Shown: positions 31,343 through 49,657 of the stretch, in pieces | How positions within the stretch are numbered: position 1 is the first letter of the stretch | How the letters are laid out: each line of letters starts with the position of its first letter | Assembly: GCF_008933605.1 (NCBI RefSeq) | Contig: NZ_WBUS01000008.1 | Location: 1-49,657, forward strand | Length of the DNA stretch: 49,657 nucleotides | From: Albidovulum sp. | GTDB lineage: Bacteria; Pseudomonadota; Alphaproteobacteria; Rhodobacterales; Rhodobacteraceae | Direction of reading: 5' to 3' | The notes under the pieces: generated by a model | What the model saw: only the letters and a program-made list of their open reading frames with translations | The model's database searches: none | Told to the model about the DNA's origin: nothing | Program-made: the position numbers and the translations under genes

Positions 31343-31370
31343 CCGAGGGCGCAAATATTCTTCGCGCGAG

Positions 31371-31400: not shown

Positions 31401-31424
31401 ACACATTGCAGGAATGGTGATCCG

Positions 31425-34797: not shown

Positions 34798-35238
34798 TCA
34801 TGGCGCCGCCTCGCTCTCGGCATGGCGGTGGTCGGTTGAGCAGAGGGAATGGTCGCCCAGAACCTCGATGACGCGGCAGTCGGCTATCGTGCCATGCGCG
34901 CACTGGACCAGCATGCGCTGGAGTTCGACCTTGAGCGCCGTCAGCCGTGCGATGCGGCTTTCGATCTCGGCCAGTTGGGTGCGTGCGATGGCATCGGCGG
35001 CGGCGCAGGGCTGGTCAGGATCGTCCGACAGGCTGAGCAGGTCGCGGATGGCGCCGAGCGAGAAGCCGAGGTCGCGGGCATGCCGGATGAAGGCCAGCCG
35101 TTCCAGCGCCCTGCGGCCATAAAGCCGCTGGTTGCCCGCGCTGCGTTCCGCCTCGGGCAGAAGGCCGATCTGCTCGTAATAGCGGATCGTCGGGACCTTC
35201 ACGCCCGCCTGCGTGCCGAGTTTTCCGATTGTCAGCAT
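34798..35238 (-). CDS. MerR-family heavy-metal regulator (ZntR/CadR/PbrR type)
   Basis: A 146-residue metalloregulator. The HTH is LTIGKLGTQAGVKVPTIRYYE followed by GLLPEAERSAGNQRLY, diagnostic of metal-sensing MerR proteins. Potential thiol ligands are C in DQPCAAAD, then C and H in VQCAHG, C in ADCRVI and a C near the tail, a pattern closer to Zn/Cd/Pb sensors than to the two-Cys CueR pattern. It is divergent from the P-type ATPase gene and should activate it by untwisting the 19-bp-spacer promoter at 35249-35279. ATG 35238 follows AAGGGAT; the upstream extension to 35298 would cover the promoter. Confidence 0.88.
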   Translation of the reverse strand: MLTIGKLGTQAGVKVPTIRYYEQIGLLPEAERSAGNQRLYGRRALERLAFIRHARDLGFSLGAIRDLLSLSDDPDQPCAAADAIARTQLAEIESRIARLTALKVELQRMLVQCAHGTIADCRVIEVLGDHSLCSTDHRHAESEAAP

Positions 35239-35248
35239 CGGATATCCC

Positions 35249-35279
35249 TTGAAGCTATGGTCGCTAGAGAGATTAGGTT
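35249..35279 (+). promoter_or_regulatory. MerR-type promoter with 19-bp spacer
   Basis: TTGAAG (35249-35254), a 19-base spacer containing an imperfect CTATGG-TCG-CTAGAG dyad, and TAGGTT (35274-35279) form the over-long promoter that MerR proteins activate by DNA distortion. It points toward the P-type ATPase gene and lies 10 bases from that gene's first ATG. Confidence 0.65.
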
Positions 35280-35324
35280 TTCGAATCGATGAAGACAACA
35301 GGCCCTCGGGGCCGGGACGAAACG

Positions 35325-37565
35325 ATGCGTGAAGCGACGGATGAGATCGCCTGCGACTGGACCGTGTCCGGCATGGACTGCGGATCCTGCGCGACCAAGA
35401 TCAAGGATGCGGTGGCACGCCTGCCGGGGGTGAGCGGTGTCGAGGTCGCCATCATGTCGGAACGCCTGCGTCTGACGCTGGACGAGGCGCAGACCGGCCG
35501 GGAGAGGATAGAAAGCACCGTGCGCGCGCTCGGCTACGGGATCGCGCCGCGCACCGCATCGGCGAAGAGGGACTTCGTCTTGCCCGGCACGGATCCGGTG
35601 AAGGCGAGCGGCGACGGTCACGCACACGCTCCGCAGGACGATTCCGGTCACGGCAGCCCCGGCCATGTGCACGACGACCCCGCCGACCGCGGCAAGCGCT
35701 GGCATCAGACGGCCAAGGGGCGGCTGGTGATCTTCACCGGCCTGCTTCTGGGCGCGGCATGGATCGTCGGGTCCCTGGTGCCAGAGGCCGGTCGCTGGAC
35801 CTTCGTCGCCGCCTGTCTGATCGGGGTCGCCCCGGTGGCGCGGCGCGCGCTTGCCGCCTTGAGGGTGGGGCAGCCCTTCACCATCGAAAGCCTGATGACC
35901 ATTGCCGCCATCGGCGCGCTCTTCATCGACGCGGCGGAGGAAGCTGCGCTGGTCGTCTTCCTCTTCGCCGTGGGCGAGGTGCTGGAGGGCGTGGCGGCGG
36001 GCAAGGCGCGCGACGGCATCCGCGCGCTCGCGAACCTCGTGCCCAAGACCGCGCTCGTCGAGGCCGACGGTACGGCGCGCGAGGTGCCGGCGGCGAGCCT
36101 TGGCATCGGTCAGATCGTCCTCGTCCGTCCGGGCGACCGCGTCCCGGCGGATGGCGAGATCGTCGAGGGTACATCGGGCGTCGACGAAAGCCCGGTCACC
36201 GGCGAAAGCGTGCCGAAGACGCGGGGCGTGGGCGATGCCGTCATTGCCGGGGCGATCAACACCGAGGCCGCGCTGCGCGTGCGCGTCACCAAGGGGGCCG
36301 AGGACAACACCATCGCCCGGATCATCCGGCTGGTGGAGGAGGCCGAGGAGGCGCGCGCTCCGACCGAACGCTTCATCGACCGCTTCAGCCGCTGGTACAT
36401 GCCCGCCATCGTCGCCGTCGCGGCGCTGGTGATGCTGGTGCCGCCCATGGGCTTCGGCCAGCCGTGGGAGACCTGGGTCTATCGCGGCCTTGCGCTCCTG
36501 CTGATCGGCTGTCCCTGCGCGCTGGTGATCTCGGTCCCGGCGTCGATCGCCTCGGCCCTCTCGACGGGCGCGCGGCGGGGGCTTCTGATGAAGGGCGGGG
36601 CGGTGGTCGAGGCTGCGGCCAGGGTGAACTGGATCGCCTTCGACAAGACCGGCACGTTGACCCTCGGCCGCCCGCAGGTGACGGATGTCGTCCCCTTCGG
36701 CACCACGGCCGAGGCCGGCCTGCTGGCCGTGGCGGCTGGTGTGGAAGCCGGGTCGAGCCATCCGCTCGCGCTGGCCATCCTGGCGAAGGCCAAGGCGGCG
36801 GGGATCGCGCCCTTGCCGGCCACCGACGCGAAGGCGCTGATGGGCAAGGGCGTGGTCGCGACCGTGGGCGGTGCGCCCGCCTGGGTTGCCTCGCCCCGGA
36901 CGGCAATGGACCTGGGTGGAATTGACGGGTCCGGCCTGCGCCGGGCGACGGCATTCGAGGAGGAGGGAAAGACGGCCGTCGCGGTATTCCGCGACAAGAC
37001 CCCGCTTGGACTGATCGCGATGCGGGACGAGCCGAGGGGGGATGCGCAGGAGGCGGTGCGGCAACTCAAGGCCATGGGCCTGACCCCCGTGATCCTGACC
37101 GGCGACAATCCCCGGACGGCGGCGGCGATTGCCGGGTCCCTCGGCCTGGCATTCGAGGCTGACATGCTGCCCGAGGACAAGCTCGCCTTCATCCGCAGGA
37201 ACGGTGCGCAGGGGGACGTGATGATGATCGGCGACGGCATCAACGACGCCCCGGCGCTGAAGCAGGCGAGCGTCGGTGTCGCCATGGGCTCGGGCACCGA
37301 TGTGGCGCTGGAAACCGCCGACGCGGCGATCCTGCGCGACCGGGTGACGGACATTCCAGCCAAGATCCGCCTTGCCCGTGCCGCCATGGCCAACATCCGC
37401 CAGAACGTGGCAATGGCGCTCGGGCTCAAGACCGTGTTTCTTGTGACTTCGGTGGTCGGGCTGACGGGCCTCTGGATCGCGATCCTCGCCGACACCGGGG
37501 CAACGGTGCTCGTCACGCTGAACGCGCTGCGCCTGCTGCGGTTCAACCCGGAGCGGGAGGCGTGA
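35325..37565 (+). CDS. zntA: Heavy-metal (Zn/Cd/Pb) P1B-type ATPase
   Basis: About 746 residues. Domain order is an N-terminal HMA domain with GMDCGSCA, a His-rich linker (GHAHAPQDDSGHG), membrane helices, SPVTGESVPKT (actuator), GCPCALV (transmembrane CPC), DKTGTLTLG with the phosphorylated Asp, SSHPLALAIL, LTGDNPRTA and MIGDGINDAP. It pumps soft divalent metals out of the cytoplasm using ATP. The CPC motif and the partner MerR fit Zn/Cd/Pb rather than Cu. ATG 35325 has GGGACG at a normal distance. ATG 35289 would be almost leaderless from the MerR-type promoter, so it is less likely. Confidence 0.9.
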   Translation: MREATDEIACDWTVSGMDCGSCATKIKDAVARLPGVSGVEVAIMSERLRLTLDEAQTGRERIESTVRALGYGIAPRTASAKRDFVLPGTDPVKASGDGHAHAPQDDSGHGSPGHVHDDPADRGKRWHQTAKGRLVIFTGLLLGAAWIVGSLVPEAGRWTFVAACLIGVAPVARRALAALRVGQPFTIESLMTIAAIGALFIDAAEEAALVVFLFAVGEVLEGVAAGKARDGIRALANLVPKTALVEADGTAREVPAASLGIGQIVLVRPGDRVPADGEIVEGTSGVDESPVTGESVPKTRGVGDAVIAGAINTEAALRVRVTKGAEDNTIARIIRLVEEAEEARAPTERFIDRFSRWYMPAIVAVAALVMLVPPMGFGQPWETWVYRGLALLLIGCPCALVISVPASIASALSTGARRGLLMKGGAVVEAAARVNWIAFDKTGTLTLGRPQVTDVVPFGTTAEAGLLAVAAGVEAGSSHPLALAILAKAKAAGIAPLPATDAKALMGKGVVATVGGAPAWVASPRTAMDLGGIDGSGLRRATAFEEEGKTAVAVFRDKTPLGLIAMRDEPRGDAQEAVRQLKAMGLTPVILTGDNPRTAAAIAGSLGLAFEADMLPEDKLAFIRRNGAQGDVMMIGDGINDAPALKQASVGVAMGSGTDVALETADAAILRDRVTDIPAKIRLARAAMANIRQNVAMALGLKTVFLVTSVVGLTGLWIAILADTGATVLVTLNALRLLRFNPEREA

Positions 37566-37568
37566 GAC

Positions 37569-38084
37569 ATGATCTCGGGGTTCGGCTGGGCCGCGCTGGC
37601 CCTTCTATTCGGGTATCTGGCGCTGTTCTTCTGTGGCAGCGCCCTCGCGGCGTAGGCGGCAGGTCGGCCAATCTGGCTCTTCGCGCCCGCCCGGGGGCGC
37701 GACCGGCTTGCCGCCGCATGCTTCCGCGCGGCCTTTGTCCTCGCCTTCTTCGGGTCGCTTCTCTGGCCGGCCCTGCCGGGCCTGCACAAGGTCGATCCGC
37801 TCTGGACCGAAGGTTCTGCCGTGGTTCCCGGCCTGATCGGGGTCTTCGTCGCCGGTCTCGGCGCGATGTTTGCCTTCGCCGCCCAGATGTCGATGGGAAC
37901 GTCCTGGCGGGGTGGCGTGGCGGGCGGCGCGGCAGGCAACGCCGTCGACCGCGCGCGGCATGGCGCCGTCACCGATTTCGTCGACCTCTACAGGGGCGAT
38001 CGACGACGTTGCGATGCGGGATCGGGCATGGTCATGATCGGACCCTGTCCAGCGTCATCCCCGCCTCAAGCCGGATTGCCCTGA
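37569..38084 (+). pseudogene. Broken isoprenylcysteine carboxyl methyltransferase-like gene
   Basis: ATG 37569 starts MISGFGWAALALLFGYLALF, but a TAG at 37653-37655 stops it after 28 codons. The same frame continues with AGRPIWLFAPARGRDRLAA, PGLHKVDPLWTEGSAVVPG and AAQMSMGTSWRGGV, which are typical of the integral-membrane ICMT-like methyltransferases often found beside metal-efflux genes. After GTSWR the expected RNPTFLG catalytic segment is missing and the frame degenerates to an unrelated stop at 38084. Both the early stop and the lost 3' part indicate decay. It lies four bases after the metal ATPase gene, so it was once probably part of that operon. Confidence 0.7.
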
Positions 38085-38872
38085 CAGGTCCTCCGCCAGA
38101 GATCGACGGTAGCCTCCACGTCGCAGTGCTTGATAGCTGCGACCAGGAGGTTGCCGCGCCGACCTGCAACCAGGAGGTGTCGACCGGACCTCTCGGGCAA
38201 GGCGAAGACCAGAAGCCCATTCGTCTCGAGCGTTCCAAGCAGCGGAAAGCCGGGCGACAGCAATTCCTTGAGCGAACTCTCGACCCAGTCGACGACAAAC
38301 GCCGCTTCGTCGCCCTCGCCGAGGACCAGCGACGAGTCCGCGCCCTGGATCAAAACCACGGCCTGCAACAAAGGTCGGAGTCCCTCAAGGAGCGCCTCGT
38401 GCCCCGTGCCCTCGCCCCTCCCGGGACTTGCCTCGCCGGGCAGGCCCGCCGCCTCGGAGATGGCGGTCGGATCGACGCCGCCCCGCACCGGACCGCCCCC
38501 TTCGCCGAGCGGTTCCGCCGTCATGGCGAACCCGGCGCCTCTCTCGCAGAGCCCACGGAAGAGGACGGAAACCGCGCGAACGTCGTCGAAGGCCAATTCA
38601 TCGCGGTCGAACAGCGCCATCTGCTCAGCCGTCAGCCCGGGTGGTGGCGGGGTCAGCAGCCGCACCAGCCGGCGGCCTGACGCCTCGCAGGCGAGCCGCG
38701 ACCCATCGTCGAACTCGAAGCTCAGGCGCCGGCCAAGAACCGCGACATCGACCTGTTCGAGGATGCGGGCAAGGCCCTCCGACCAGGAGGCATATCGAAC
38801 CGGCCCCGGTCGCGCCATACCGTCCCGCGCCGAACGCCGAAGCATCGCCTTCAATCGCTCGAAGTCGTTCAT
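38066..38872 (-). CDS. Hypothetical protein, possible Roadblock/LC7-like C-terminus
   Basis: A 268-residue protein, last gene of the kinase/GTPase operon. I recognise no firm family. The N-terminal half (residues 1-130) contains RRLSFEFDDGSRLACEASG and ELAFDDVRAVSVLFRGL. The C-terminal half, about residues 165-260, has a beta-beta-alpha-beta-beta-beta pattern: LLQAVVLIQGADSSLVLGEG, VDWVESSLKELL, then GTLETNGLLVFALP and HLLVAGRRGNLLVAAI. That layout recalls Roadblock/LC7 proteins, which in bacteria (MglB) regulate GTPases; this is a fold guess, not a sequence match. Its ATG overlaps the upstream TGA. Its 3' end overlaps the ICMT-like relic by about 19 bases. Confidence 0.6.
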   Translation of the reverse strand: MNDFERLKAMLRRSARDGMARPGPVRYASWSEGLARILEQVDVAVLGRRLSFEFDDGSRLACEASGRRLVRLLTPPPPGLTAEQMALFDRDELAFDDVRAVSVLFRGLCERGAGFAMTAEPLGEGGGPVRGGVDPTAISEAAGLPGEASPGRGEGTGHEALLEGLRPLLQAVVLIQGADSSLVLGEGDEAAFVVDWVESSLKELLSPGFPLLGTLETNGLLVFALPERSGRHLLVAGRRGNLLVAAIKHCDVEATVDLWRRTCQGNPA

Positions 38873-39222
38873 TCGGCGGGATCCTCACCGGCAAGGGCTG
38901 CGCGGGCCGTGTCGATCAGCGTCCCGACGGCGACCTCGGCTGCGCAGATGCAGCACAGGGCTTCGTTCGGCTCTGCAAGGTTCCTGAAGAACATGCGACT
39001 TCCCGTCGGCGACAGGAACAGCACGTGTTCGACCGGCCCCTCCCGTTTCGGGCCTGAAGCGAGCAGGTCGGCGGCACAGGCGCAAAGCGCGTCGAGGTAT
39101 TCCTGCGGGAAATGCAGGGCGCCGTCCGAACTGAGAACGGTCCGCGACTCAAGGTCCACATAGACCGCGAGCTCGCAGTCGGTGAGCTTGCGGCGAAAGG
39201 CGTTGAGCGCACTTGGGGTCAT
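38869..39222 (-). CDS. Small Roadblock/LC7-like protein
   Basis: A 117-residue cytosolic protein. CELAVYVDLESRTVLSSDG, then a helix (QEYLDALCACAADLL) and EHVLFLSPTGSRMFFRNL with EALCCICAAEVAVGTLIDTA follows the Roadblock/LC7 order of strands and helices. Family members such as MglB act as GTPase-activating or scaffolding partners of small GTPases, and here the neighbours are two GTPases. The fold call is by pattern only. ATG 39222 is preferred over a TTG at 39270, though neither has a clear ribosome site. Cysteine content is unusually high for a cytosolic protein of this size (5 or 6 Cys). Confidence 0.6.
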   Translation of the reverse strand: MTPSALNAFRRKLTDCELAVYVDLESRTVLSSDGALHFPQEYLDALCACAADLLASGPKREGPVEHVLFLSPTGSRMFFRNLAEPNEALCCICAAEVAVGTLIDTARAALAGEDPAE

Positions 39223-39303
39223 CGGCTGGCCGCTTCGATCTTCGGTATGGAGAACGCGATCTTGCGCCAACCCGGCCGGCGCGACAACCCAAAGCGGGCG
39301 CTG

Positions 39304-40299
39304 CTAGATCAACGACGCGGAGGCAGGAAGTCGCGGACGTCGGCTCGGCCCCTGCTCCTCCGGGCGCAACACGACGCGCCGCGGGACGATCCTGCCGACC
39401 GGCGCTTGCCCGCCTGTCGCCGGTGGCGCGGCTTCGTCCGGCCGGGTCTCGGCGGTGACCGGCCATTCTTGTGCAGCCTCATCCGGTGCGGGGCGGAGTC
39501 GCACGGGAGTCGTCGCCTCGATGTGTGCGTCAACGTCATCGGCTTCCGCTGGCGCCAAGGCAAAGATGTCGGACGCGTCGGCCTGCGGTTCGTCGGCAAG
39601 CGTCTCTTCGAGGTCGATGATGATCTTCTCCAGCCCGACCAGGACCGCCTCAAGGCCCGATGATCGCCAGGCGTCGGGATCGCCGTCGGCGTCCTGGGCC
39701 TCGATGAGAGAAACCGGAATGACCTCGCGGAACATCGGCCCCGCTTCACGTTGCACCCGACCCAGCACGCGCCGCCGGTCGTCCCCCGACAGGACCTTGT
39801 CGATGCGGGTGACCAGAAGCAGGCTGCGCGGGAAGAGGCGCTCCGGCGCGTCTTCCCACAACGCCGCCTCGGACTGGCGCCAGGCCTGTGTTGCGGGCGT
39901 GCACCAGATTACCGCGTCGGCCAGCGGCAACATGCGTTGCCAGATGTCTTCGGTGATGTGCGGATCCGAACTGCCCGGCATGTCGATGAGGTCGCAGGCT
40001 TCGAGAATGTCTGCCTGCACGAATTTCCGGATGGCGCGAGTGCTGCGGACCGAGACCGTGTCAGCCCCCGCGGAGTCGAGCGGCTCTTCCGACCCGTCCA
40101 TCGCGATACGGATCGCGGGCGCGTCGCCCAGCGAATACCAGATCGGCGGCATCTGCGTTGCCGTCACCTGCACGGGCGAAAACGTCTCGTTCAGCAGCAG
40201 GTTCGCCAGCGTGCTCTTGCCAGCGCTGAATTCGCCCATCAGGACGACCCGGGGTTTCCGCGGCACCACCGGAGTTTCCGACTTCAGTTCGGCCGTCAT
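39304..40299 (-). CDS. Dynamin-like/TRAFAC GTPase, 331 residues
   Basis: The G-domain is intact: G1 GEFSAGKST (residues 22-30), a G2 Thr in VTATQMPPI, G3 DMPG (106-109) and G4 TRID (164-167). GEFSAGKST followed by LANLLLNE is typical of dynamin-related and YeeP/LeoA-like bacterial GTPases. The C-terminus from about 230 is a long acidic/Pro-rich disordered tail ending RRVVLRPEEQGPSRRPRLPA, with no helical stalk. This makes it much shorter than a true dynamin, so it may work as a regulatory partner of the large GTPase upstream. ATG 40299 overlaps the upstream TGA and has GGAGGG before it. Confidence 0.85.
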   Translation of the reverse strand: MTAELKSETPVVPRKPRVVLMGEFSAGKSTLANLLLNETFSPVQVTATQMPPIWYSLGDAPAIRIAMDGSEEPLDSAGADTVSVRSTRAIRKFVQADILEACDLIDMPGSSDPHITEDIWQRMLPLADAVIWCTPATQAWRQSEAALWEDAPERLFPRSLLLVTRIDKVLSGDDRRRVLGRVQREAGPMFREVIPVSLIEAQDADGDPDAWRSSGLEAVLVGLEKIIIDLEETLADEPQADASDIFALAPAEADDVDAHIEATTPVRLRPAPDEAAQEWPVTAETRPDEAAPPATGGQAPVGRIVPRRVVLRPEEQGPSRRPRLPASASLI

Positions 40300-42380
40300 T
40301 CCGCAGCCCTCCATTCGCTTCGTGGTTTCAGTTCGGACAGGAACACGACAGTCTCGCTCAGCGCATCCCGCCGACCCGTGGCGACGGCTTCGGCGCGTTC
40401 CCGAAGTGTGTCGACCCCGATCTCGGTCTGGTTCGCGAGATCGAGCAGGTGCGCCCGTTGGGCGTCGATGAAGTCCTTGAGGACTTGCCGTGCGGATTGG
40501 GCATAGACCTCCGCGTGATCGGCGCGAAGCGAGACGAGGAACGGTTCGATCTCGGCGTCGATCAGCGCCGAGTATTCCTCGGCGTAACTCTGGTAGCTTC
40601 GGCGGCGGCGCCACCAGTTCGTCCACCAGTTTCCCTTCACGTCGAGCGCGATCGTGCTGCCGAGGATGACCGGCGGAGGCGGGTTCTGCACCACCGGCGC
40701 CTCGATCGTTGCGGCGTCTTCGCTAAGCTGGAACGCTCCGACATAGAGTGTCCGGATATCGGCGGCGGCGGCCGCGAAGATCTTCTCGCTCGTGTTCATC
40801 GCCTTAGCGGTGAAGACCCGGTAGGCCGAACTCAAGAGCAGCCGCAGACCCGCCGGATCGTAGGTCCAGATCTCGTGATCGCCAAAGTCTTCGAGGTGGC
40901 GGATCAGCGAGGCCGTGGCGCGGCCGAGGAAGGATCGCCGCGCGCCCGTGAGCCGGCCGTCGAGCCCCGAGATCAGCTTCTCCATCTCGGCGTCGAGAAG
41001 ATCGAGGCTGCGCCGCGCGATGGCGTCGACTTCGCGGCCGATATCGGCGGGTGCCACGGGCGTGACCGCGTCGCCTTCCATCCGCTTCGACATGACCTGC
41101 CGCGAGGCCTCGATGCTGGTCGCGATGTTCCGCGCCGAGCGGACGATGCGTTCCTCAAACTCGGCACCTTCGCCGGAGTCGATCCGGGAGGAGATCGCCT
41201 CGCAGAGCGCCGGAATGCCGGATATCTTCCAGATCGTCTCGTGCACCGTTCCGGGCACCTCGCCGGAGCGCAACTTGTGCTCGGCCCATTCGAGCAACGC
41301 CTTCGAACTCGCCTTTCCAAGATCCCTGTAGACCTGGGACAGAGCGTGAACCGCCCAGAACGCGCTGCCGAAAATGATCTCGGCATCGGTCGGACCGTTC
41401 AGGGCCTTGAGGGTGGCAACGATGCTCGTGCGGATTTCTTCGGTCTCGCGGACGGGATCGTTCAGTTCGTCGATCCGGTTGACAAAGATGATGACCTCGC
41501 GCGACCGGATGTTGGAGATCAGGCGGATCAGTGCCATGTCGACAGTTGACAGGGTCTGATGCGCCGAAAGCACCACGACGCAGAGCCGGCTCTCGCGGAT
41601 GGCGTTGACGGTGATCTGCTCGCGGATCATGAACGTGTCGTTCACGCCGGGCGTGTCGCGGATGCAGAGCCGGTGCGGCAGGTCCGGCTGCCCGAGATAG
41701 AGATCGGCCGACTTCGTGATGTCGGCGAACCGCCCCTGCTTCTGGTCGGCGGAGGTGTTGCCGCCGAGATCGTCGCCGAGGCAGACATATCGCTGCACCA
41801 GTTCCTGATCGACGTAGCCGTATTCGTGCTCCTGCCCCATCAGCAACTCGAACTTCTTGCCAAGCCGCTGGCGCGACTTCTCGCGCATTTCCTCAAGCTG
41901 GCGCCGCACCTTTTCGAGTTCCTTGTGCGCGCCCGCGCGGGCTGCAAGCTCGCCGACGCGCCCCCCGCGGTTGAGCAGGCGGTCCCATTCATCCTCGTCG
42001 AAGAAGCGGAACTTCGCCTTCCCCGAGCCGCTGCGTGTCGCGGGATCGAGGTGAAGCGACGTCACCACCGAGGTCCAGGGGTTGATGTCGGCGGGCAGGA
42101 GGCCCGGCCAGCCCGCCAACGCATTCACCAGGGTGGTCTTGCCCGCCTTCACCTGGCCGATCATCGTCACCGATGGCTCAAAGCTGCGGATCTGGCGCTT
42201 GAGCTTTCGTGTGGCTGCCTGCGCTGTGTCCCCGCCGGCATCGGCGATCGCGTCCACCGCGGTTTCGAGCTTGCGGATGCGCTCGGCGAACGCCTGCAAC
42301 CCGGAAAACGCCGATCGGATCAGGTCGCCCTCGGCCGACGTGGCGTCGTCCTGCCCTGTGTTTCTTGGTTCGGCGTTCAT
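40296..42380 (-). CDS. Large dynamin-like GTPase, 694 residues
   Basis: Residues 1-70 are helical. G1 is GQVKAGKTT (75-83), G2 PWTSVVT (T103), G3 DTPG (242-245) and G4 NRID (301-304). The insertion at about 125-200 is charged and helical (ELEKVRRQLEEMREKSRQRL), and residues 400-694 form a long helical stalk-like part. A Trp/Arg segment, NWWTNWWRRRR at 584-594, preceded by hydrophobic VILGSTIALDV, looks like a membrane-insertion tip. These features fit bacterial dynamin-like proteins, which remodel membranes using GTP. The start follows AAGGAG. It lies in an operon with a kinase, FHA protein and phosphatase, so phosphorylation may control its assembly. Confidence 0.85.
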   Translation of the reverse strand: MNAEPRNTGQDDATSAEGDLIRSAFSGLQAFAERIRKLETAVDAIADAGGDTAQAATRKLKRQIRSFEPSVTMIGQVKAGKTTLVNALAGWPGLLPADINPWTSVVTSLHLDPATRSGSGKAKFRFFDEDEWDRLLNRGGRVGELAARAGAHKELEKVRRQLEEMREKSRQRLGKKFELLMGQEHEYGYVDQELVQRYVCLGDDLGGNTSADQKQGRFADITKSADLYLGQPDLPHRLCIRDTPGVNDTFMIREQITVNAIRESRLCVVVLSAHQTLSTVDMALIRLISNIRSREVIIFVNRIDELNDPVRETEEIRTSIVATLKALNGPTDAEIIFGSAFWAVHALSQVYRDLGKASSKALLEWAEHKLRSGEVPGTVHETIWKISGIPALCEAISSRIDSGEGAEFEERIVRSARNIATSIEASRQVMSKRMEGDAVTPVAPADIGREVDAIARRSLDLLDAEMEKLISGLDGRLTGARRSFLGRATASLIRHLEDFGDHEIWTYDPAGLRLLLSSAYRVFTAKAMNTSEKIFAAAAADIRTLYVGAFQLSEDAATIEAPVVQNPPPPVILGSTIALDVKGNWWTNWWRRRRSYQSYAEEYSALIDAEIEPFLVSLRADHAEVYAQSARQVLKDFIDAQRAHLLDLANQTEIGVDTLRERAEAVATGRRDALSETVVFLSELKPRSEWRAAE

Positions 42381-42391
42381 CGTCGATCTCC

Positions 42392-43618
42392 TTAGTTCAG
42401 GGGCGTTGCCGGCCGGACCAGACGTGCCTCGAATGCGGAACGAAGTTGGAGCAGCAATGCGGCGGCATCGGCTGCCTGCGCGGGACCGCCCTCGATCTGC
42501 AGCAGCGTCGCCATGTCGGCGGCATCGTCGACGAGCCCCCGGAGCGCCCTGGCCGCGCCCTCGTCCTCCGGCCAATCCGCCGCACGGTCTCGAAGGCCGT
42601 CGGTCACCTGACAGCAACGCTCCAGGACTTCGTCGGCCCAGTCGGCGGAGTCCGCGTCGTGCCATTCCATCGCCTCGAAGAGGTCGCGCGCGTTGCGCTT
42701 GAGAAAGATGAGCGGCTCGGACAGGAGATCGACCATGCAGGCCATTTCCGCGCTCTCCGGCCGATCGGCCTGCCCCGGGGTCGGGTGAACGGGCGTTTCG
42801 GCCGATGGTTCCGGTTGCGGTTCCGGCTTGGGCGCGGCGATCTCCTGACCACACCGATGAAGGAGAAGCCGCGCCGCATCGAGGTCTTCGGCAAGCCCCT
42901 CGTCGATGTCGGCGGCGAGTTGCCCGAGCAGCCGTTGCGCCCCCGCCTGCAAGTCGCTGGCGGCGCTCCCCTGCGCGGCATGGGCGAGCGGCAGGACAAT
43001 CGCGCGCTCGAAATCCGGCGGCATCCGATCGCGCAGGCCGCCCATCGCGGGTTGAGGACCGAAGACAAGCAGATAGGCGTGGTTTTTCAACTCAAGTGCG
43101 GCCGAACTCCAGATCCGGGCCTCAAGAGGCGCGAAGTCCCGTGTGCACCAGAGGGCGAAATCCATACGGCCTGCGGCCCAGCGGAGTGCCGCCGACTGCT
43201 CCGCCGCGTCCTCGCCGGCTGAGAGATAGAGGAACGTCATGCGCCGCAACGGCTCAAGCGGGGCTCCGATCTTCAGGAAGACCGCACCGCGCTCAAGCAG
43301 GTCGCCCATCGGCATTCCATCCGCGGCGAGTGTGCTCGCGTCCGCCAGCGTTGCCCGCGTGTGCGCGCGCTCTGCGAAGCCGATTTCCATGGTGGGCCAG
43401 GCCGTCCGTGCCGGCAGGACTTCGGTCCCGATGAGGGCGGTCAGCAGGTGCTTGCGCTGTTCGGCCTCGAACCCGATCAGCCCGACGCGGATCGGTCGGC
43501 GCAGTCGTTCGACGAGACGCTCGCAGCTTTGGGCAATTCGCGGGGGGATCGCGGCGGAGGCGAGTACGGCCTCGAGGTCTTCCAGAGTCTTCCGGGTGCT
43601 GGGCGCAAGCGATGCCAC
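42392..43618 (-). CDS. Degenerate GTPase-like protein (probable pseudo-GTPase)
   Basis: A 408-residue protein. RPIRVGLIGFEAEQRKHLLTALIGTEVLP (residues 41-69 region) lines up with a dynamin-type G1 strand-loop-helix, but the loop GFEAEQRKH lacks the GK[ST] core: the Gly is Arg and the Ser/Thr is His. The G3 place reads YLSAGED rather than DxxG, and the G4 place YLLVFGPQ rather than [NT]KxD. It therefore probably cannot bind GTP normally. The helical C-terminus (ERCCQVTDGLRDRAADW onward) is about 150 residues. Such inactive relatives often heterodimerise with active GTPases, and the active large GTPase is encoded 11 bases downstream. Confidence 0.7.
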   Translation of the reverse strand: MASLAPSTRKTLEDLEAVLASAAIPPRIAQSCERLVERLRRPIRVGLIGFEAEQRKHLLTALIGTEVLPARTAWPTMEIGFAERAHTRATLADASTLAADGMPMGDLLERGAVFLKIGAPLEPLRRMTFLYLSAGEDAAEQSAALRWAAGRMDFALWCTRDFAPLEARIWSSAALELKNHAYLLVFGPQPAMGGLRDRMPPDFERAIVLPLAHAAQGSAASDLQAGAQRLLGQLAADIDEGLAEDLDAARLLLHRCGQEIAAPKPEPQPEPSAETPVHPTPGQADRPESAEMACMVDLLSEPLIFLKRNARDLFEAMEWHDADSADWADEVLERCCQVTDGLRDRAADWPEDEGAARALRGLVDDAADMATLLQIEGGPAQAADAAALLLQLRSAFEARLVRPATPLN

Positions 43619-43622
43619 GGGG

Positions 43623-44513
43623 TCAGCTCCTTGTCCTCAGGTGCCGCGTCGATGAGAACGCGCCGCTCCACGCCCGCAGCATCGTCGACGGCGACAGCCA
43701 CCCCGCCGGACGCACTTCGGCCGTCGGGTTGGAGACCTTCAGGACGACCACCGAGATATTGTCCTGTTCCGGATCGCCAAGCGCCGCGACCTCTGCGATC
43801 AAGGCGTTGGCGATCGAGGCGCTGCGCACGCCGGCCGCACGCGACAGAACCAGCTCTATCCTTTCGTCCGGAAGGAACTGGAGCCCGTCGCTGGCGACCA
43901 GCACCAGATCGCCGTCTTGCAGCGCAAACGGTTCATCCGGGCAATCGATCACGCTGATTTCATCGCCGGTCAGAGCGGAGGTCAGGCAATTTCTCTGCGG
44001 GTGGTTGCGGCCGATTTCCGGGTCGATCAGGCCCTTCCTGACCATCAGGTCGATCTGCGGCGCCATCGAATGATCGTCGTTGAGGCGTGACAGCCTGCCG
44101 TCACGATAGAGATAGAGCGGCGAGTCCCCGACCGATATCCAGTAGAGACGGCCCGCCAGAATCACGGCCACGATCACCGTGCCGCCCATGCCGGCAGTTT
44201 CGGGTGCCGCCTTGATCCGCGCGCGGATGCGGTGGTTGGCGACATTCGCGGCACTGCGCAGCAACTTCGGTATGTTCGTCTCGGACAAATCCGGATCCGC
44301 AATCCGCAGGGTGAGGTCGGCGAAGATCTCGGCGACGATGATCCGGCTCGCCACGTCGCCCGCGGCATGCCCGCCCATGCCGTCGGACAGCACCGCGAAG
44401 CCGATCTCGGCACCCTGTGCAAACGAGGTCGCGAGCGCGTCCTCCTGGCGCGACCGTGCGCCACGGTCGAGCGCGGAGGCTGCGTCGATCTCGATCTCAG
44501 CTTTCGGGGCCAT
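43623..44513 (-). CDS. PP2C-family Ser/Thr protein phosphatase
   Basis: A 296-residue PPM-type phosphatase. Metal-site motifs are all present: RSRQED (D25), SDGMGGHAAGD (D45), VGDSPLYLYRDG, VASDG (D209) and DPEQDN (D251). It removes phosphate from Ser/Thr, presumably reversing the kinase encoded two genes upstream. ATG 44513 fits the family N-terminus and overlaps the FHA gene by 17 bases; the extension to 44561 lies wholly inside the FHA gene. The C-terminal 30 residues after ISVVVLKV are basic and Ser-rich, with no recognised domain. Confidence 0.92.
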   Translation of the reverse strand: MAPKAEIEIDAASALDRGARSRQEDALATSFAQGAEIGFAVLSDGMGGHAAGDVASRIIVAEIFADLTLRIADPDLSETNIPKLLRSAANVANHRIRARIKAAPETAGMGGTVIVAVILAGRLYWISVGDSPLYLYRDGRLSRLNDDHSMAPQIDLMVRKGLIDPEIGRNHPQRNCLTSALTGDEISVIDCPDEPFALQDGDLVLVASDGLQFLPDERIELVLSRAAGVRSASIANALIAEVAALGDPEQDNISVVVLKVSNPTAEVRPAGWLSPSTMLRAWSGAFSSTRHLRTRS

Positions 44514-45369
44514 CGGTGTCCTGCCTGTCTTCCGTCGAGCCCCAGGTGAAATCCGGACCACAGAGGGCGACGAAACGAAGCGTCGTCTTGCCGATCCGGA
44601 TCAGGTCGGCATCAGCGAGTTCCTCGGTGGCCAGAACGGGACTGCCGTTCCTGCGAACGATGTTCGACTTGCCGCCGTGGCCGACGAAGAACCTGTTCTG
44701 CTCGTCGTCGTAGGCGATCGAGGCATGGTTCTCGCGCGAGATGCTGGTGTCGCCGAAATCCAGGCAGACCGTCTGGTCGGCACCTCGGCCGATGGTCGAG
44801 ACGCCTGCACCGATCGTGAACGACGTGCCCCGTCCGGGGCCGTCGACAATCACGAGCCAGCCGGCGGGAAACCGCCCCTTCGTTGCCGGCGCCGCCCGTT
44901 CCGCGGCGAACACGTCGTCTTTCACCCCGCCCGCGTGGAATCCGATGATCCGGGTCTTCACCCGCGCCGCGGCTATGGCTGCGGGGCCCTTGGTCAGGTC
45001 TTGATCCGACCCGGTGCGAACTCGCGCAATCTGCGCTGCTTCCGAAGGCTCGTCAGCGGCGGCGCGCCGTGTCTGCCCTTGTGTCGGCAGCGCGGCGCCG
45101 TCGTCGCGGTCGGCTTCTTCTATGTCCCATATCTGCTTCTTCGGGGGGGGATCGGCTGTCGCGCCGACCGGGCCGTATCTCTCCACTTGCGGCAGAGCGG
45201 CAGGTGTTTCAGGCACTGGTTCCACGGCGCCTTCGAGTTCCTGGAGTCTCTCGCGCACGGCATCGAGATCGAAAAAGTCTGAAACCTGCTCCGATCCATC
45301 GGCGTCGCTTCGGGGCGCGGACGAAGGCAGCGGCCGCTTGCGTACAATCACGTCTCTCAGATATCTCAC
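44497..45369 (-). CDS. FHA-domain protein
   Basis: A 290-residue protein. Residues 1-165 are low-complexity, charged and probably disordered. The FHA domain spans about 170-262, with GRG at 194-196, the phosphothreonine-binding SRENH (211-215) and N236 in GKSNIV. FHA domains bind phosphothreonine peptides, so this is the likely reader of the neighbouring kinase's marks, and its long tail could itself be the phosphorylated, self-inhibitory part. The start is a GTG at 45369 overlapping the kinase stop (GTGA). Confidence 0.9.
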   Translation of the reverse strand: MRYLRDVIVRKRPLPSSAPRSDADGSEQVSDFFDLDAVRERLQELEGAVEPVPETPAALPQVERYGPVGATADPPPKKQIWDIEEADRDDGAALPTQGQTRRAAADEPSEAAQIARVRTGSDQDLTKGPAAIAAARVKTRIIGFHAGGVKDDVFAAERAAPATKGRFPAGWLVIVDGPGRGTSFTIGAGVSTIGRGADQTVCLDFGDTSISRENHASIAYDDEQNRFFVGHGGKSNIVRRNGSPVLATEELADADLIRIGKTTLRFVALCGPDFTWGSTEDRQDTDGPES

Positions 45370-46748
45370 CTGCTCACCTCTTTCAGCTTCGGGCCGAGGG
45401 TGGCCCCGAAAACGCGGAAGATGTACGAACCGGCGAAGAACCGGCCGAGCACGGTCTCTTGCCGTTCGGGAACTTCGGCCTCGTCGGTTTCAAGGTCGTC
45501 GGCGGGCTCATCCAGCGGAACGACATTCCACATCGCGGAAACGGGAATCTCCGTGACGGTTTCTGGATCCGGCTCGGCCAGATCAGGTGCGGCTTCGTCG
45601 GGCGGCGCACCGGCGCTGACGCGGCCCGCAGCCGAGTAAGCGCTCCGGGTTGCCACGGTCTGAGCAGGTGGCGGGGCAGGGGATTCCGGCAGCGGCGCGG
45701 ACGGCTCGGCAGGCGACTCGATCGGCGACTGGCGCTGCGAATCCTGGACGAGCTGAGCAATGCGCCTCTCCATTTCGAGGTCGTTCCGGGCCTCTTCCAG
45801 CAGCCGCAGCTGGCGCCGCTCGGTATCGATCAGGTCGCGCCATTCCGCTGCATTCTGGAGCCTCTCGGACGGGAATATGCTGAGGCAGCGGTTGATGGCG
45901 TCGAGGAAATAGTTGTCGTAACCCCTGATCTTCACGGGGGTCAGCGGGTCCAGCGGGTCCTTCAGGTTCTTCGCCACAGCCGCCAGCCGCATCTGGCTGC
46001 TGGGCGGCGCGTGTCCCGACACCAGATGGTAGAACGTCGCGGCTAGCGCATAGAGATCGCTGGAAAACGCCTGCTCGCTCCCTGCGAGGTAGAGTTCCTG
46101 GGGCGAATAGCCGTCCTTGACGGTCAGAACCTTCGAGAGAACCCGACTCACCCGCGTCGCGCTTTCCCGCGCCGCGCCGAAATCGATGAGGACCGGCGAA
46201 TTGTCGGCTTCAAGGAGGATGTTGTCGGGGGAAATGTCGCGGTGAAGGATGTCGTGGTCGTGCATGTAGGCAACGGCATCGAGCACCTTGATCAGCAGTT
46301 GTTTGATCTCTTTGGGGTCGAGCCGGCCCGGTTCCGTCTCGATCACCTGGAGCAGGTCGCGTCCGTCAACGAAGTCTAGCGCCATGTAGGCGGTGTCGTT
46401 GTCCTTGAAGATCTGGTGAACGCCAACGATGTAGGGATGCTGCAGTTCCGATAGGGCGCGGGCTTCCTTTTCGAACAGGTCGAGAATCTTGCTGAATTCC
46501 GGCGCACTGCTTTTGGAGCGGAGCCGTACCGTCCTGCGCGTGCGGCAGCATATCGCTCCGGGAAAGCACTCCTTGATGACGATCTTGCGGCCAAGGCTGT
46601 CGCGCGCGAGGTATGTGATCCCGAACCCGCCGGAATTCAGATAGGATTCGATCGTGTATTGCCCCCCGCACAATACCGTCCCGGGTGACAATTCGTCCCC
46701 GAAGGAATCGAGTTGACCGACAACCCCTATGTTCGCCGACTCGTCCAA
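45366..46748 (-). CDS. Hanks-type Ser/Thr protein kinase
   Basis: A 460-residue kinase and the first gene of the operon. The G-loop is LNSGGFGITYLA (37-48), with K59 in IVIKE, E95 in the C-helix, HRDISPDN (D171, N176), IDFGAAR (D189) and the GYSPQE segment near 213-218. All catalytic residues are intact. Residues about 320-345 are probably coiled coil, followed by a Pro/Ala/acidic linker (345-440). The last 20 residues (FFAGSYIFRVFGATLGPKL) are mildly hydrophobic and might touch a membrane, but no clear transmembrane helix or PASTA domain is present. It probably phosphorylates the FHA protein and one or more GTPases of the same operon. Confidence 0.92.
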   Translation of the reverse strand: MDESANIGVVGQLDSFGDELSPGTVLCGGQYTIESYLNSGGFGITYLARDSLGRKIVIKECFPGAICCRTRRTVRLRSKSSAPEFSKILDLFEKEARALSELQHPYIVGVHQIFKDNDTAYMALDFVDGRDLLQVIETEPGRLDPKEIKQLLIKVLDAVAYMHDHDILHRDISPDNILLEADNSPVLIDFGAARESATRVSRVLSKVLTVKDGYSPQELYLAGSEQAFSSDLYALAATFYHLVSGHAPPSSQMRLAAVAKNLKDPLDPLTPVKIRGYDNYFLDAINRCLSIFPSERLQNAAEWRDLIDTERRQLRLLEEARNDLEMERRIAQLVQDSQRQSPIESPAEPSAPLPESPAPPPAQTVATRSAYSAAGRVSAGAPPDEAAPDLAEPDPETVTEIPVSAMWNVVPLDEPADDLETDEAEVPERQETVLGRFFAGSYIFRVFGATLGPKLKEVSR

Positions 46749-47262
46749 TTCTGTTCCCTGGGTGAATGGTGACAGAAATGCACAGCCCGAAGGCCGTCAA
46801 CTATCCGACACAGTCGTGAGAAAATGCGCCCGAAAGATGGCAACAAACTGGTGGATGTTGGCCACGCAGGAACAAGATCGATATAAGTCTGCCGATTGAT
46901 GCCTCTTGCAGCGCGCCGCTTTTGCCGGATGCGCACAATCTTGAGCGGGATTGAGCACCACGAGCGAGACCGCGAACAAGCTTTCGCCTGGTGCCGTGCC
47001 CCTCGACGCAATCCGGCTGAGGCTCCATGGGGCTCGGTTCCGAAAATCCCCTGAGGGACACATCTTGTGAATCCAGCGCGGCAATTGGGCGGCGGCGTTA
47101 CCCCCGGGATTGCCCGCCGGAGTGATCACCGGGCGGCCAGGCAGCCGTTGCCGCAGGGCGCGGGCTGAGCGGCGGGCCGCCTCCCTGGCACCCCGCCGAA
47201 CCTCTCCGCGCCTCGGCCTGCGCGCCCCGCCCCGGTTCAGGGCACGGCGCGCCTGACCGCGG
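46749..47262. other. 514-base gap upstream of the kinase operon
   Basis: No credible gene is seen. The part near 46800-46930 is noticeably less GC-rich and is the likely promoter region of the kinase/GTPase operon, although no convincing -35/-10 pair stands out. At the other end, just after the dnrN stop, GGTCAGG and CCTGAACC (about 47235-47259) could form an imperfect hairpin without a T-tract. Confidence 0.5.
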
Positions 47263-47916
47263 TCACTCGAACCGCGGGAACAGCACGTCGTTTTCCAGGT
47301 GGATGTGGCGGACCACGTCTTCCGACAGCTTGGCCAGCCCGGCATAGAGTGCGGTCCAGGACCGGCACGCCCCCTCGGGCAGGTGCAGGCCGTAAGTCGC
47401 ATGCTCGATCCCGCGCAGAAGGTCGGTCGTCGTGTCATGCTCGTGCCGCATCGCCCCGATCGGATGCGTGATCATCGGGTGGCCGCCGTTCTTCATCATC
47501 GGGAACAGCACCTGTTCCTCCTTGGCCATGTGGCTCGCAAGGTCGTCGCGCAGCGCGATCAGCGCCTCGGTGATGCCAAGAGGGGCCTCGTCATGGTCGC
47601 CGTGCACGGTTTCCACCTTCTGCGCCAGCGGGATCAGCCAGTCGAACTCGGCCCGGTGCACCTCGTGGTAGCGGGTGAGGATGTGGTCGATCAGGGCGCC
47701 CGTCTCCTCGGGCGCATCAGTGGCGGCGCCGTCGATAAGGGCCTGCAGCTCTCCGGTCAGGTCGGCGACCGGCATGTGGGCCGCATTCGCCGCCTCGACA
47801 AGCGAGGACTTGCCGCCGCAGCAGAAGCTGATGCCATGGCGACGGAAGACCTCGGCGGCACCGGGCAGGCGGTCGGCGATGTCGCCGACGCAGGCGTCGG
47901 GAGAGAGGGTAATCAT
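47263..47916 (-). CDS. dnrN: Iron-sulfur cluster repair di-iron protein (DnrN/YtfE/ScdA)
   Basis: A 217-residue hemerythrin-like protein. The N-terminal ScdA domain carries VFRRHGISFCCGGKSSL. The C-terminal helical bundle supplies conserved His and Glu residues of the di-iron site (YHEVHRAEF, ASHMAKEEQVLFP, MRHEHD, HIHLENDVLFPRF). These cytosolic proteins protect or repair Fe-S centres under nitric oxide or oxidative stress and are commonly controlled by FNR or Nnr-type regulators. Its ATG overlaps the ubiX stop (ATGA). Confidence 0.92.
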   Translation of the reverse strand: MITLSPDACVGDIADRLPGAAEVFRRHGISFCCGGKSSLVEAANAAHMPVADLTGELQALIDGAATDAPEETGALIDHILTRYHEVHRAEFDWLIPLAQKVETVHGDHDEAPLGITEALIALRDDLASHMAKEEQVLFPMMKNGGHPMITHPIGAMRHEHDTTTDLLRGIEHATYGLHLPEGACRSWTALYAGLAKLSEDVVRHIHLENDVLFPRFE

Positions 47917-48491
47917 GGCAGGGTTCCTTCGTTTGGGTTCCAGGCGCGCGCGCCGGGAGGGGCGATATGCAGAAGATCCACCGCGCGGGCAGCGATCTGG
48001 GCGGTGATCTGCGCCGTCGTCTCGGGGCGCAGGTAGAAGGCGGGAACCGGCGGCAGGACGATGGCGCCCATCTCGGTCGCAAGGGTCATGTTGCGCAGAT
48101 GGGCGAGCGTCAGCGGCGCCTCGCGCGCCAGAAGCACCAACGGGCGGCGTTCCTTGAGCTGGACGCTGGCCGCGCGGGTCAGCAGATTGTCGTCCAGGCC
48201 CTGCGCGATCGCGGCCAGGCTGCGCATCGAACAGGGCGCGACGATCATGCCGGCGACAGGATACGACCCCGAGGCGATGGCGGCGCCCAGGTCGATCACC
48301 GGGTGCAGCCGGTGGACCAGCGAAACCAGCTCATCCCGCGCATCGGGGCCGATCTCCAGCGCCAGGGTGCGTTCGGCCATGGGCGATAGGACCAGATCGA
48401 CCACGGCCCCCGAGCGGCGCAGCGCCCGCGCGCAATCCAGCGCCAGCGCCGCGCCGGAGGCGCCCGAGACGCCCAGCACGACCCGGCTCAT
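47913..48491 (-). CDS. ubiX: UbiX-type flavin prenyltransferase
   Basis: A 192-residue protein with the UbiX/Pad1 pattern: VLGVSGASGAALALD at the N-terminus, IVAPCSMRSLAAIAQGLDDN, LTRAASVQLKERRPLVLLARE and LRNMTLATEMGAIVLPPVPAFY. It makes prenylated FMN, the cofactor of UbiD decarboxylases, and is encoded directly after ubiD with an ATGA overlap, so the pair forms a functional unit. Confidence 0.93.
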   Translation of the reverse strand: MSRVVLGVSGASGAALALDCARALRRSGAVVDLVLSPMAERTLALEIGPDARDELVSLVHRLHPVIDLGAAIASGSYPVAGMIVAPCSMRSLAAIAQGLDDNLLTRAASVQLKERRPLVLLAREAPLTLAHLRNMTLATEMGAIVLPPVPAFYLRPETTAQITAQIAARAVDLLHIAPPGARAWNPNEGTLP

Positions 48492-49657
48492 TGCAGCACC
48501 CCGCGCAGCAATTCGGCCGCCCGCGCCTCATGGGCTGGGTCGAGCGCCATCACCCGGCCCCAGTCGCGCGTGGTCTCGGCCCCGATCTTGGTGGTGGCGT
48601 CGATGCCCAGCTTGCCGGCAAGCCCCTCGCGCGGGGAGGCGAAGTCGAGGTAGTCCATCGGCGTGCCGTCTATCGTCATGAGGTCACGCGCCGGGTCCAT
48701 CCGGGTGGAAATGGCCCAGAGCACATCGTCCCAGTTGCGCGCGTCGATGTCGTCGTCCACTACGACGATCAGCTTGGTATAGCTGAACTGCGGCAGCATC
48801 CCCCAAAGCGCCATCATCACCCGCCGCGCCTGGCCGGGATAGCGCTTGGCGATCCTCACCACGGCCATGCGGTAGGAACAGGCGGCCGGCGGCAGCCAGA
48901 GGTCCTGCACCTCGGGGATCTGGGCGCGGACGACAGGCAGCGCGAGGTCGTTGAACACCTCCCCGATGACCGAGGGCTCGTCCGGCGGCCGCCCGGTGAC
49001 GGTGGACAGGTAGAGCGGGTCGCGGCGGCAGGTGATGCGGCTCACGCGCACGACGGGGAAGGGCTCCGCCGCGTTGTAGTAGCCGGTGTGGTCGCCAAAG
49101 GGGCCTTCGGGTGCCGTCTCGCCGGGATGGACCCAGCCCTCCACGACGATCTCGGCGTGGGCGGGCACCATCAGCGGCACCGTCCGCGCCGCGGCGATCT
49201 CGGCCCGGGCGCCGCGCAGGACCCCCGAAAAGGTCAGTTCCGACACGCTTTCCGGCAGCGGCAGGGCGGCGGACAAGAGGAACGCCGGGTCGCAGCCAAG
49301 CGCCACGGCGACCGGCATCGGCTCTCCCGCCCGTTCCCAGCCGCGGTGATGCGCCGCGCCGCCGCGATGCGCCAGCCAGCGCAGGATCAGCCGGTCGGGC
49401 CCGATCACCTGCGCGCGGTAGATGCCGAGATTGTAGCGCCCGACCTGACCGGCCTCCGATCCGTGCGGGCGGGTAATGACCACCGGCCAGGTGATCAGCG
49501 GCCCGGCGTCGCCCGGCCAGGGCGTCTGCACCGGCAGGTCGGCGAGGTCGGGCAGGATCGCTTCCTGCGCCGGCGGGCGCGACAGCACCTTGGCGCGGGC
49601 CGACAGCGCCGCCTTGAGCATCGGCCAGCGCGACAGGGCATCGCGCAGGCCGTCGGG
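48488..49657 (-). CDS. ubiD: UbiD-family decarboxylase (5' end beyond the window)
   Basis: Partial. The frame stays open to the window's last base, so 389 residues of the C-terminal part are visible, and the family is usually about 450-500. Motifs include GRYNLGIYRAQVIGPDR, GGAAHHRGWERAG, VALGCDPAFLLSAALPLP, EGPFGDHTGYY and KLIVVVDDDIDARNWDDV. With prenylated FMN it decarboxylates aromatic acids, here probably the octaprenyl-hydroxybenzoate step of ubiquinone synthesis. An internal ATG at 49621 is not the likely start because upstream residues (GLRDALSRWP) continue in frame. It is co-transcribed with ubiX and dnrN. Confidence 0.9.
   Translation of the reverse strand, partial: PDGLRDALSRWPMLKAALSARAKVLSRPPAQEAILPDLADLPVQTPWPGDAGPLITWPVVITRPHGSEAGQVGRYNLGIYRAQVIGPDRLILRWLAHRGGAAHHRGWERAGEPMPVAVALGCDPAFLLSAALPLPESVSELTFSGVLRGARAEIAAARTVPLMVPAHAEIVVEGWVHPGETAPEGPFGDHTGYYNAAEPFPVVRVSRITCRRDPLYLSTVTGRPPDEPSVIGEVFNDLALPVVRAQIPEVQDLWLPPAACSYRMAVVRIAKRYPGQARRVMMALWGMLPQFSYTKLIVVVDDDIDARNWDDVLWAISTRMDPARDLMTIDGTPMDYLDFASPREGLAGKLGIDATTKIGAETTRDWGRVMALDPAHEARAAELLRGVLQ

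Follow-up and report, generated by a model that had tools for sequence, protein, structure and literature searches.

A conserved eight-gene cassette of Rhodobacterales that joins a kinase, FHA and PP2C trio to a pair of dynamin-type GTPases

In Albidovulum sp., genes for a Hanks-type kinase, an FHA-domain protein and a PP2C phosphatase are located in one run with genes for dynamin-type GTPases and small Roadblock-type proteins, which raises the question of whether such a set is a single system and, if so, what it might do. The run lies on contig NZ_WBUS01000008.1 (49,657 nt; this whole stretch is referred to below as the window, and its genome, G000, is 98% complete). A first-pass annotation had read it as an eight-gene, minus-strand operon matching no named system. 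Comparison with related loci supported the view that the eight genes, named K1 to K8 in transcription order, form one system. The eight frames occupy positions 38066-46748, all in the same direction on the minus strand, as follows:

45366..46748, minus strand: K1, Hanks-type Ser/Thr kinase, 460 aa, TTG start, short form (Pkinase 6.6e-32, conserved residues)
44497..45369, minus strand: K2, FHA-domain protein, 290 aa (FHA 1.9e-6)
43623..44561, minus strand: K3, PP2C phosphatase, start uncertain, with an ATG at 44513 (PP2C_2 1.9e-11)
42392..43618, minus strand: K4, predicted degenerate dynamin-type GTPase, P-loop lost in the window (alignment; 5owv chain C profile match 2.6e-10)
40296..42380, minus strand: K5, large dynamin-like GTPase, 694 aa (Dynamin_N 9.5e-12)
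39304..40299, minus strand: K6, predicted second dynamin-type GTPase, 331 aa, GTPase head and variable tail (Dynamin_N 6.9e-10)
38869..39270, minus strand: K7, predicted Roadblock/LC7-fold protein, conserved start ATG at 39222 (AlphaFold and Foldseek)
38066..38872, minus strand: K8, 268 aa, fast-evolving, possibly with a Roadblock/longin-like domain (AlphaFold, weak Foldseek matches)

Conservation of the gene run

The frames are tightly packed, as the first-pass annotation had described. K1/K2, K5/K6 and K7/K8 each overlap by 4 bp and K2/K3 by 65 bp (17 bp if K3 starts at its ATG at 44513), while gaps of 4 bp separate K3/K4, 11 bp K4/K5 (K5 ATG at 42380) and 33 bp K6/K7, the last becoming 81 bp, the widest in the run, if K7 starts at 39222. 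No sigma-70-like site was found within positions 37500-47300, and terminator-like sites in the same interval were at chance level (6 vs 6.2 expected).

When a K5 profile was run against 84,980 species genomes, 504 relatives were obtained, and the best 80 of these, all titled Rhodobacterales or genera of that group, were taken as the loci for analysis. All eight families were found on one strand in 67 of the 80 loci, and each of the remaining 13 runs into a contig end, so the synteny proposed as a check by the first-pass annotation was observed wherever the contigs allowed. The complete loci include those of Silicimonas algicola DSM 103371 and Marivita hallyeonensis DSM 29431. One locus (L107) shows K6 before K5 owing to an over-long frame, and three (L119, L120, L163) hold one extra family member each. 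The gene caller used for the loci was checked by eye on L173 alone, where most annotated genes were recovered. The distance matrices of K1 to K8 correlate at 0.75-0.91 in the 68 complete loci including the window, compared to a correlation of at most 0.12 when the K1 and K5 matrices were permuted 500 times. Multi-kilobase gaps at the extremes of this data set reflect wrongly chosen frames. Chance adjacency of the eight genes was rejected on the basis of the complete loci and this correlated divergence.

Co-occurrence was examined in a sample of 149 genomes over 148 genera of the window's family. K4 is present in 30 of them, all of which also carry K5, and K5 was found in 8 of the 119 genomes lacking K4 (3 of the 8 being weak matches), giving 38 of 149 in total. 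K2 reaches 1e-15 in 29 genomes, and K5 is also present in 27 of these. The two exceptions are G146 (83% complete), where 2.1 kb of sequence follow K3 before the contig stops, and G011, which has a weaker K2 (1e-25) in a trio of another kind, beside trypsin-like frames. The Fisher test of K2 against K5 used a stricter cut chosen after the fact, which removes G011 and leaves 28 strong genomes, K5 being present in 27. Because the genes co-occur, diverge in a correlated manner, are transferred as a unit and remain associated after rearrangement (the last two are described below), the reading of the eight genes as one system is supported. As far as the open PMC literature searched is concerned, the set is undescribed; subscription journals lie mostly outside that search. 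The cassette consists of known parts in a new union, in which the trio and the dynamin pair are lastingly joined with K4, K7 and K8.

Properties of the encoded proteins

K1 is the single Pkinase match in the window genome. Its catalytic lysine and the HRD..N and DFG residues are each kept by 90% or more of 68 rows. In K2, a segment VKTRIIGF containing Thr139 is located ∼50 residues ahead of the FHA domain. The T, R, G and F of the corresponding (K/R)TRxxGF pattern do not vary across 45 aligned rows (drawn from 96), nor do the FHA residues G-R, S-R-x-x-H and N in the same rows, and the pattern itself is present in 72 of 76 rows. FHA domains prefer phosphothreonine with Ile or Leu at +3, and the FHA proteins OdhI and GarA provide the precedent of a fold-back switch. 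Thr139 is a candidate phosphosite, since this threonine is conserved, has Ile/Leu at +3 and lies near the FHA domain. The third protein, K3, matches an Stp1-type NCBIfam model at 7.7e-44, below the cut-off of that model, and its motifs are well kept (DGMGG and QED in 76/76 rows, SDGL in 73, QDN in 72). The intact residues of K1, K2 and K3 support a predicted write-read-erase logic, and the Pfam matches agree with the kinase, FHA, PP2C and dynamin-like assignments of the first-pass annotation.

The GTPases were compared with structures by profile search. K5 matches chain A of PDB 5owv (3.6e-9) and dynamin-like 2j68 (2.7e-8), and K6 matches chain C of 5owv (2.7e-7); the NCBIfam LeoA model reaches K5 at 0.092 only. 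The G1, G3 and G4 motifs are found in 81, 81 and 80 of 81 rows of K5 and in 78, 81 and 73 of 81 rows of K6, so that the "second GTPase" of the first-pass annotation can be refined to a dynamin-type GTPase. K5 has a K6 as its neighbour throughout the 80 named loci, and likewise in the other opened loci with a strong K5 (the weak L246 excepted). With 331 aa, compared to 614 for 5owv chain C, K6 looks too short for the helical trunk. The length of K5 would suffice for a trunk, and its WW, invariant in 29 rows ahead of an arginine-rich stretch, may form a lipid tip together with that stretch, as judged from sequence alone. K4 keeps the GxxxxGK[ST] loop in 47 of 80 rows, the window being among the 33 without it; it is best regarded as a putative lapsed dynamin-type GTPase, which agrees with its earlier description as pseudo-GTPase-like.

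No Pfam match was obtained for K4 or K8, and only two weak ones, below cut-offs (E 0.031, 0.078), for K7. None of 48 K7 rows matches Robl_LC7 at E 1 or better, and the PDB sequence search gave nothing useful for K7 or K8. The AlphaFold model of K7 (pLDDT 89; L119 was omitted from the fold alignment owing to an unknown residue in its row) has 77 PDB matches at 0.001 or better in Foldseek, the best being 3kye (TM 0.75, E 1.2e-5). K7 is predicted from this model to have the Roadblock/LC7 fold. The K8 model (pLDDT 88) gave no match at 0.001; its list, with a best E of 1.1e-3, is headed by MON1A and Ragulator chains and includes some bacteriophytochromes. K8, whose mean pairwise identity is 21%, appears to resemble Roadblock/longin scaffolds weakly. 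Of the two small possible Roadblock proteins proposed earlier, K7 is supported by its fold, and K8 may be one as well.

The sensor side of K1 varies between loci. Long forms (at least 560 aa) account for 21 of 91 distinct uncut kinases, and a hydrophobic stretch after residue 310 was found in 19 of these 21 compared to 4 of 70 short forms. The C-termini of the long forms resemble PDZ repeats by eye; many of 40 inspected short tails are basic with Leu and Phe, also by eye. Of four proteins scanned from extra genes in the cassettes, two match LysM (2.7e-7, 1.7e-4) and the other two SBP_bac_3 below the cut-off (2.1e-3, 1.7e-4), and their starts look like signal peptides by eye. Relatives of these LysM/SBP genes were found in 7 of 106 loci, and in six of the seven the kinase is of the long form (Fisher p 4.8e-4 on distinct K1). 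Since even distinct loci are kin to one another, p values here should not be read as if the cases were independent. The LysM/SBP genes are present in 8 of 14 carrier genomes of the window's genus, where many cassettes hold two or three and where they are located between K1 and K2 in L184, L185 and L187. LysM binds peptidoglycan. Envelope sensing is the best reading of the input, because long K1 forms with a membrane stretch and LysM/SBP partner genes occur in relatives.

Rearrangement and horizontal transfer

K5 was detected in 14 of 22 genomes of the window's genus, and the cassette takes several forms in them. Three (G000, G150, G168) have the gene order of the window without additions, and three (G149, G151, G152) carry K1, then three extra genes, then K2-K8. 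In G153, G154, G155, G156 and the fragmentary G165, the trio and extra genes form one block and K5-K6-K7-K8-K4 the other; G162 has two blocks and no extra genes, and G166 is cut after K3. Elsewhere, G003 splits the genes between two loci (L051, L254), with K1-K4 in one and two K5-K6 pairs in the other. Six changes suffice to explain the label "trio in same stretch" on a tree of 81 K5 rows, five or more of them on starred branches, compared to ∼19 for shuffled labels; the label was also given to second pairs where the locus has a trio.

Both the trio and the dynamin pair are portable, since the pair occurs alone and related trios have other partners. A trio-less K5-K6 pair was found in another family of the class (L245). 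Five genomes from other families of the Alphaproteobacteria contain K2 homologues and lack K5 at 1e-15; next to these homologues lie genes resembling K1 or K3 and genes for further membrane proteins. L266-L271 comprise homologues of the three trio genes from G011 and from other Alphaproteobacteria, several of them located, by eye, beside "FSLSALDLFASAMGAF" membrane proteins or trypsin-like frames; these are perhaps another undescribed trio-controlled system.

Other genes accompany some dynamin pairs. Small Roadblock-like proteins are encoded beside trio-less pairs at L249:6125-6475, L252:12861-13214 and L055:4480-4836 (Robl_LC7 0.0037 in L252, below the cut-off; no match in L249 or L055), and dynamin pairs may come under Roadblock control outside the eight-gene cassette as well. 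PAS proteins beside dynamin pairs (L247:7851-8390, L055:4897-5442) contain a GRNCRFLQG stretch, which we take to be LOV-like, and could possibly give light or redox input to the pairs. A variant cluster of K7, K8 and an ABC-type ATPase occurs with K5/K6 in L056/L256 and L060; in L060, genes for an Fe-S/FAD/globin protein and for a protein with a GFA domain come next, and those that follow in L056 look similar by eye.

Position, plasmid carriage and a mismatch with RpoB point to horizontal transfer of the cassette as a unit. Upstream of the cassette, at window positions 47263-49621, genes for a Ric-type hemerythrin protein, a UbiX-like flavoprotein and UbiD lie in a row. In four genomes of the window's genus, the same Ric-UbiX-UbiD block is free of cassette genes over the stretches covered: G010 and G157, both without K5, and G168 and G156, which carry the cassette on another contig. 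Distances of K5 and RpoB correlate poorly over 27 genomes (r 0.44, Spearman 0.21), the nearest neighbour agreeing in 10 of 27; G000 and G149 share 94% in RpoB and 43% in K5. Among 72,556 plasmid records K5 has 20 matches, 18 of which extend over at least 80% of K5 (12 Leisingera, 5 Ruegeria, 1 Rhodobacter); the two matches in Pseudomonas plasmids are weak and partial. Six plasmid regions were opened: three hold all eight genes in order, those of Leisingera caerulea S141 and L. aquaemixtae R2C4 among them, two more are variant forms carrying additional genes, and the sixth contains nothing but pairs.

A tRNA-targeted island as the rule was rejected, as 10 of 60 scanned named loci hold a tRNA in the stretch, with only one (L148) within 60 bp of the K8 end and a tRNA call inside the cassette span in L109. 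Carriage by phages was also rejected (no match in 50,697 phage records), and none of 41 pattern matches in viral contigs was confirmed. Near the 3′ end of the cassette, the window encodes a MerR regulator and a divergent heavy-metal P-type ATPase (34798-37565), and further away a sigma-70-family factor (30646-31404) and a cyclopropane-synthase-like gene (33481-34647), which in our assumption recall the RpoE/ChrR singlet-oxygen response.

Proposed mechanism and alternative explanations

We regard it as an even chance that the cassette is an envelope-sensing threonine-phosphorylation switch that gates a dynamin pair at the inner membrane, that is, a self-contained, horizontally transferred signalling-to-membrane cassette. 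K1 would act at the inner membrane and respond to the state of the envelope; in its long forms, in which a membrane stretch is usual, the distal part may be periplasmic and PDZ-like, with LysM or SBP3 partners in some cases. Its likeliest threonine targets would be Thr139 of K2 together with sites in at least one of the GTPases. The FHA domain of K2 would read the mark and either bring the GTPases together or keep them apart, and K3 would remove the phosphate. The output would be the dynamin pair, with K5 binding the membrane, K6 contributing a head only and K4 as a third, often dead head beside them. Roadblock-type K7 and its partner K8 may regulate the pair; once released, K5 and K6 would assemble on the inner membrane and tether, seal or remodel it. 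A more specific version, to which we give somewhat less credence, is a membrane-spanning or membrane-docked Hanks kinase that reads the periplasm, with the phosphothreonine switch and a Ragulator-like Roadblock pair turning on a dynamin heteromer, which would make a new class of signalling machine.

Several observations weigh against this interpretation, besides the kinship of the loci mentioned above. The K1 of the window has no strong hydrophobic stretch (its best 19-residue hydropathy, 1.17, lies near the C-terminus) and the window holds no LysM/SBP genes; envelope sensing is therefore carried over from relatives. Of five long kinases scanned, only that of L051 has a PDZ_6 match, and a weak one (0.0073). 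K6 appears to be without the trunk of Cj-DLP2. K5-K6 pairs with no trio in view are frequent (e.g. L247-L255 in the family), and in G167, a carrier of the window's genus with K5/K6, the trio was not found within the stretches read, which speaks against an unbreakable link between trio and pair. No named alphaproteobacterial stress-type promoter motif is common upstream of K1: the EcfG motif occurs in 4/93 vs 1/118 controls and six other motifs in 0-3 on either side, the controls being drawn from 20 stretches hand-picked away from the cassette in carrier genomes and not from a formal random draw.

Each part of the cassette has known counterparts. In the available part of the source, 5OWV is the Cj-DLP1/2 tetramer of Campylobacter jejuni, which tethers liposomes (PMC6104087). 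As in that pair, a large and a small dynamin-type gene are adjacent in the cassette, K5 matching chain A and K6 and K4 matching chain C (the naming of the chains as Cj-DLP1 or Cj-DLP2 is inferred from length); it differs from what this part of the source describes in the apparently trunkless head K6, the third, lapsed head K4 and the dedicated kinase/FHA/PP2C/Roadblock set (PMC6104087). The membrane-remodelling idea of the first-pass annotation fits this match; the damage response that it named beside this is hypothetical. The actinobacterial conservons, or AGPS (CvnA-D), also combine a sensor kinase, a Roadblock protein and a GTPase in one operon, with accessory proteins in some members, according to the accessible sections of the source (PMC13343842). 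Compared with these sections, the cassette has a Hanks kinase and not a histidine kinase, a dynamin-type and not a Ras-like GTPase, and FHA and PP2C proteins in addition (PMC13343842).

The threonine-phosphorylation pathway of the type VI secretion system (T6SS; PpkA, PppA, Fha) is similar in having kinase, FHA reader and PP2C eraser side by side, a set that the cassette contains with conserved residues; the output here would be a dynamin pair, and no VipA was found in the genome. The cassette would work like such a pathway with the dynamin pair as its machine, and is a member of neither the T6SS pathway nor the conservons. LeoABC shares bacterial dynamins with it, K5 and K6 matching PADLOC LeoA models partially; to our knowledge LeoABC includes no phospho-trio or Roadblock protein. 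DynA of Bacillus subtilis is a fused protein, unlike the separate K5 and K6, and we know of no dedicated regulators in one operon with it. The likeness lies in a dynamin acting in membrane surveillance, as given in the accessible text on DynA (PMC8844932).

Anti-phage defence, in which the kinase would sense infection and the dynamin pair delay or alter lysis in the manner of DynA, is an unlikely explanation. DynA delays phage lysis in the same accessible text (PMC8844932), the cassette is patchy, mobile and also on plasmids, and K8 evolves fast. K5 and K6 match PADLOC LeoA at 5.6e-12 and 2.6e-7, and K1 matches defence kinases such as PD-T4-6, as would be expected of any Hanks kinase. No gene set of a system listed in PADLOC 2023 was matched; there were partial LeoA/LeoBC and kinase matches, and five of the eight proteins had none. 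The neighbourhoods give the defence idea of the first-pass annotation no gain: PADLOC family-member matches at 1e-10 numbered 18 among 138 flank proteins vs 17 among 140 from other regions. The flank set was made up of 140 of 266 neighbours, minus two L120 LysM/SBP proteins removed as part of a variant system; the comparison set was made up of 140 of the 321 genes in the hand-picked stretches, which come from other genomes than the named flanks, and proteins in either set measure 80-700 aa. Location in a defence island was rejected on this comparison. The 25 commonest of 147 flank Pfam families are mainly metabolic, transport, regulatory and cell-shape families; among them is AAA_21 (labelled putative AbiEii toxin), in four flank members. 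The lack of phage matches and of confirmed matches in viral contigs also speaks against defence.

A role in cell organisation, in which the GTPase-Roadblock part would govern polarity, cell division or the budding of vesicles and would be tied to growth by the trio, is similarly doubtful. Roadblock proteins with GTPases are generally known to set polarity in Myxococcus (MglA/MglB), and an MreB-family gene is directly downstream of the cassette in five loci (L110, L114, L118, L123, L144); however, these five MreB rows are 90-98% identical and represent one clade. The patchy presence of K5, as counted above, does not fit such a role, nor does the Cj-DLP knockout, for which the available part of the source reports no obvious division defect (PMC6104087).

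Two independent operons that happen to touch are very improbable. The first-pass annotation would have been refuted had the trio belonged to another system and only touched the GTPases here. The pair and related trios do also live apart, the latter once within the family (G011); against such a view stand co-occurrence, correlated divergence and re-association after rearrangement, K2 without K5 being limited to 2 of 29 family genomes, one cut and one of another kind. Control of type VI secretion beside unrelated GTPases is the least probable of all and was rejected: the same enzyme trio is generally known to control T6SS, but VipA, as far as it marks a T6SS, was not found in G000 and was present in 10 of 30 K4-positive vs 24 of 119 K4-negative genomes (p 0.15).

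In our judgement, the stimulus and switching-on of bacterial dynamin pairs are largely open. Here, a dynamin pair seems to be wired to a full set of writer, reader and eraser, with a named candidate phosphosite, a regulator of a type that controls GTPases elsewhere, and sensor variants. If the more specific version given above is true, the cassette would be a bacterial parallel to the GTPase membrane traffic that kinases and Roadblock proteins control, passed between species as one exchangeable unit. Its sensor would come in several versions (short kinase, long receptor-like kinase, LysM/SBP3 partners) around a constant dynamin core. The control of dynamins would thereby become testable with eight genes, carried on plasmids in some strains, in marine bacteria.

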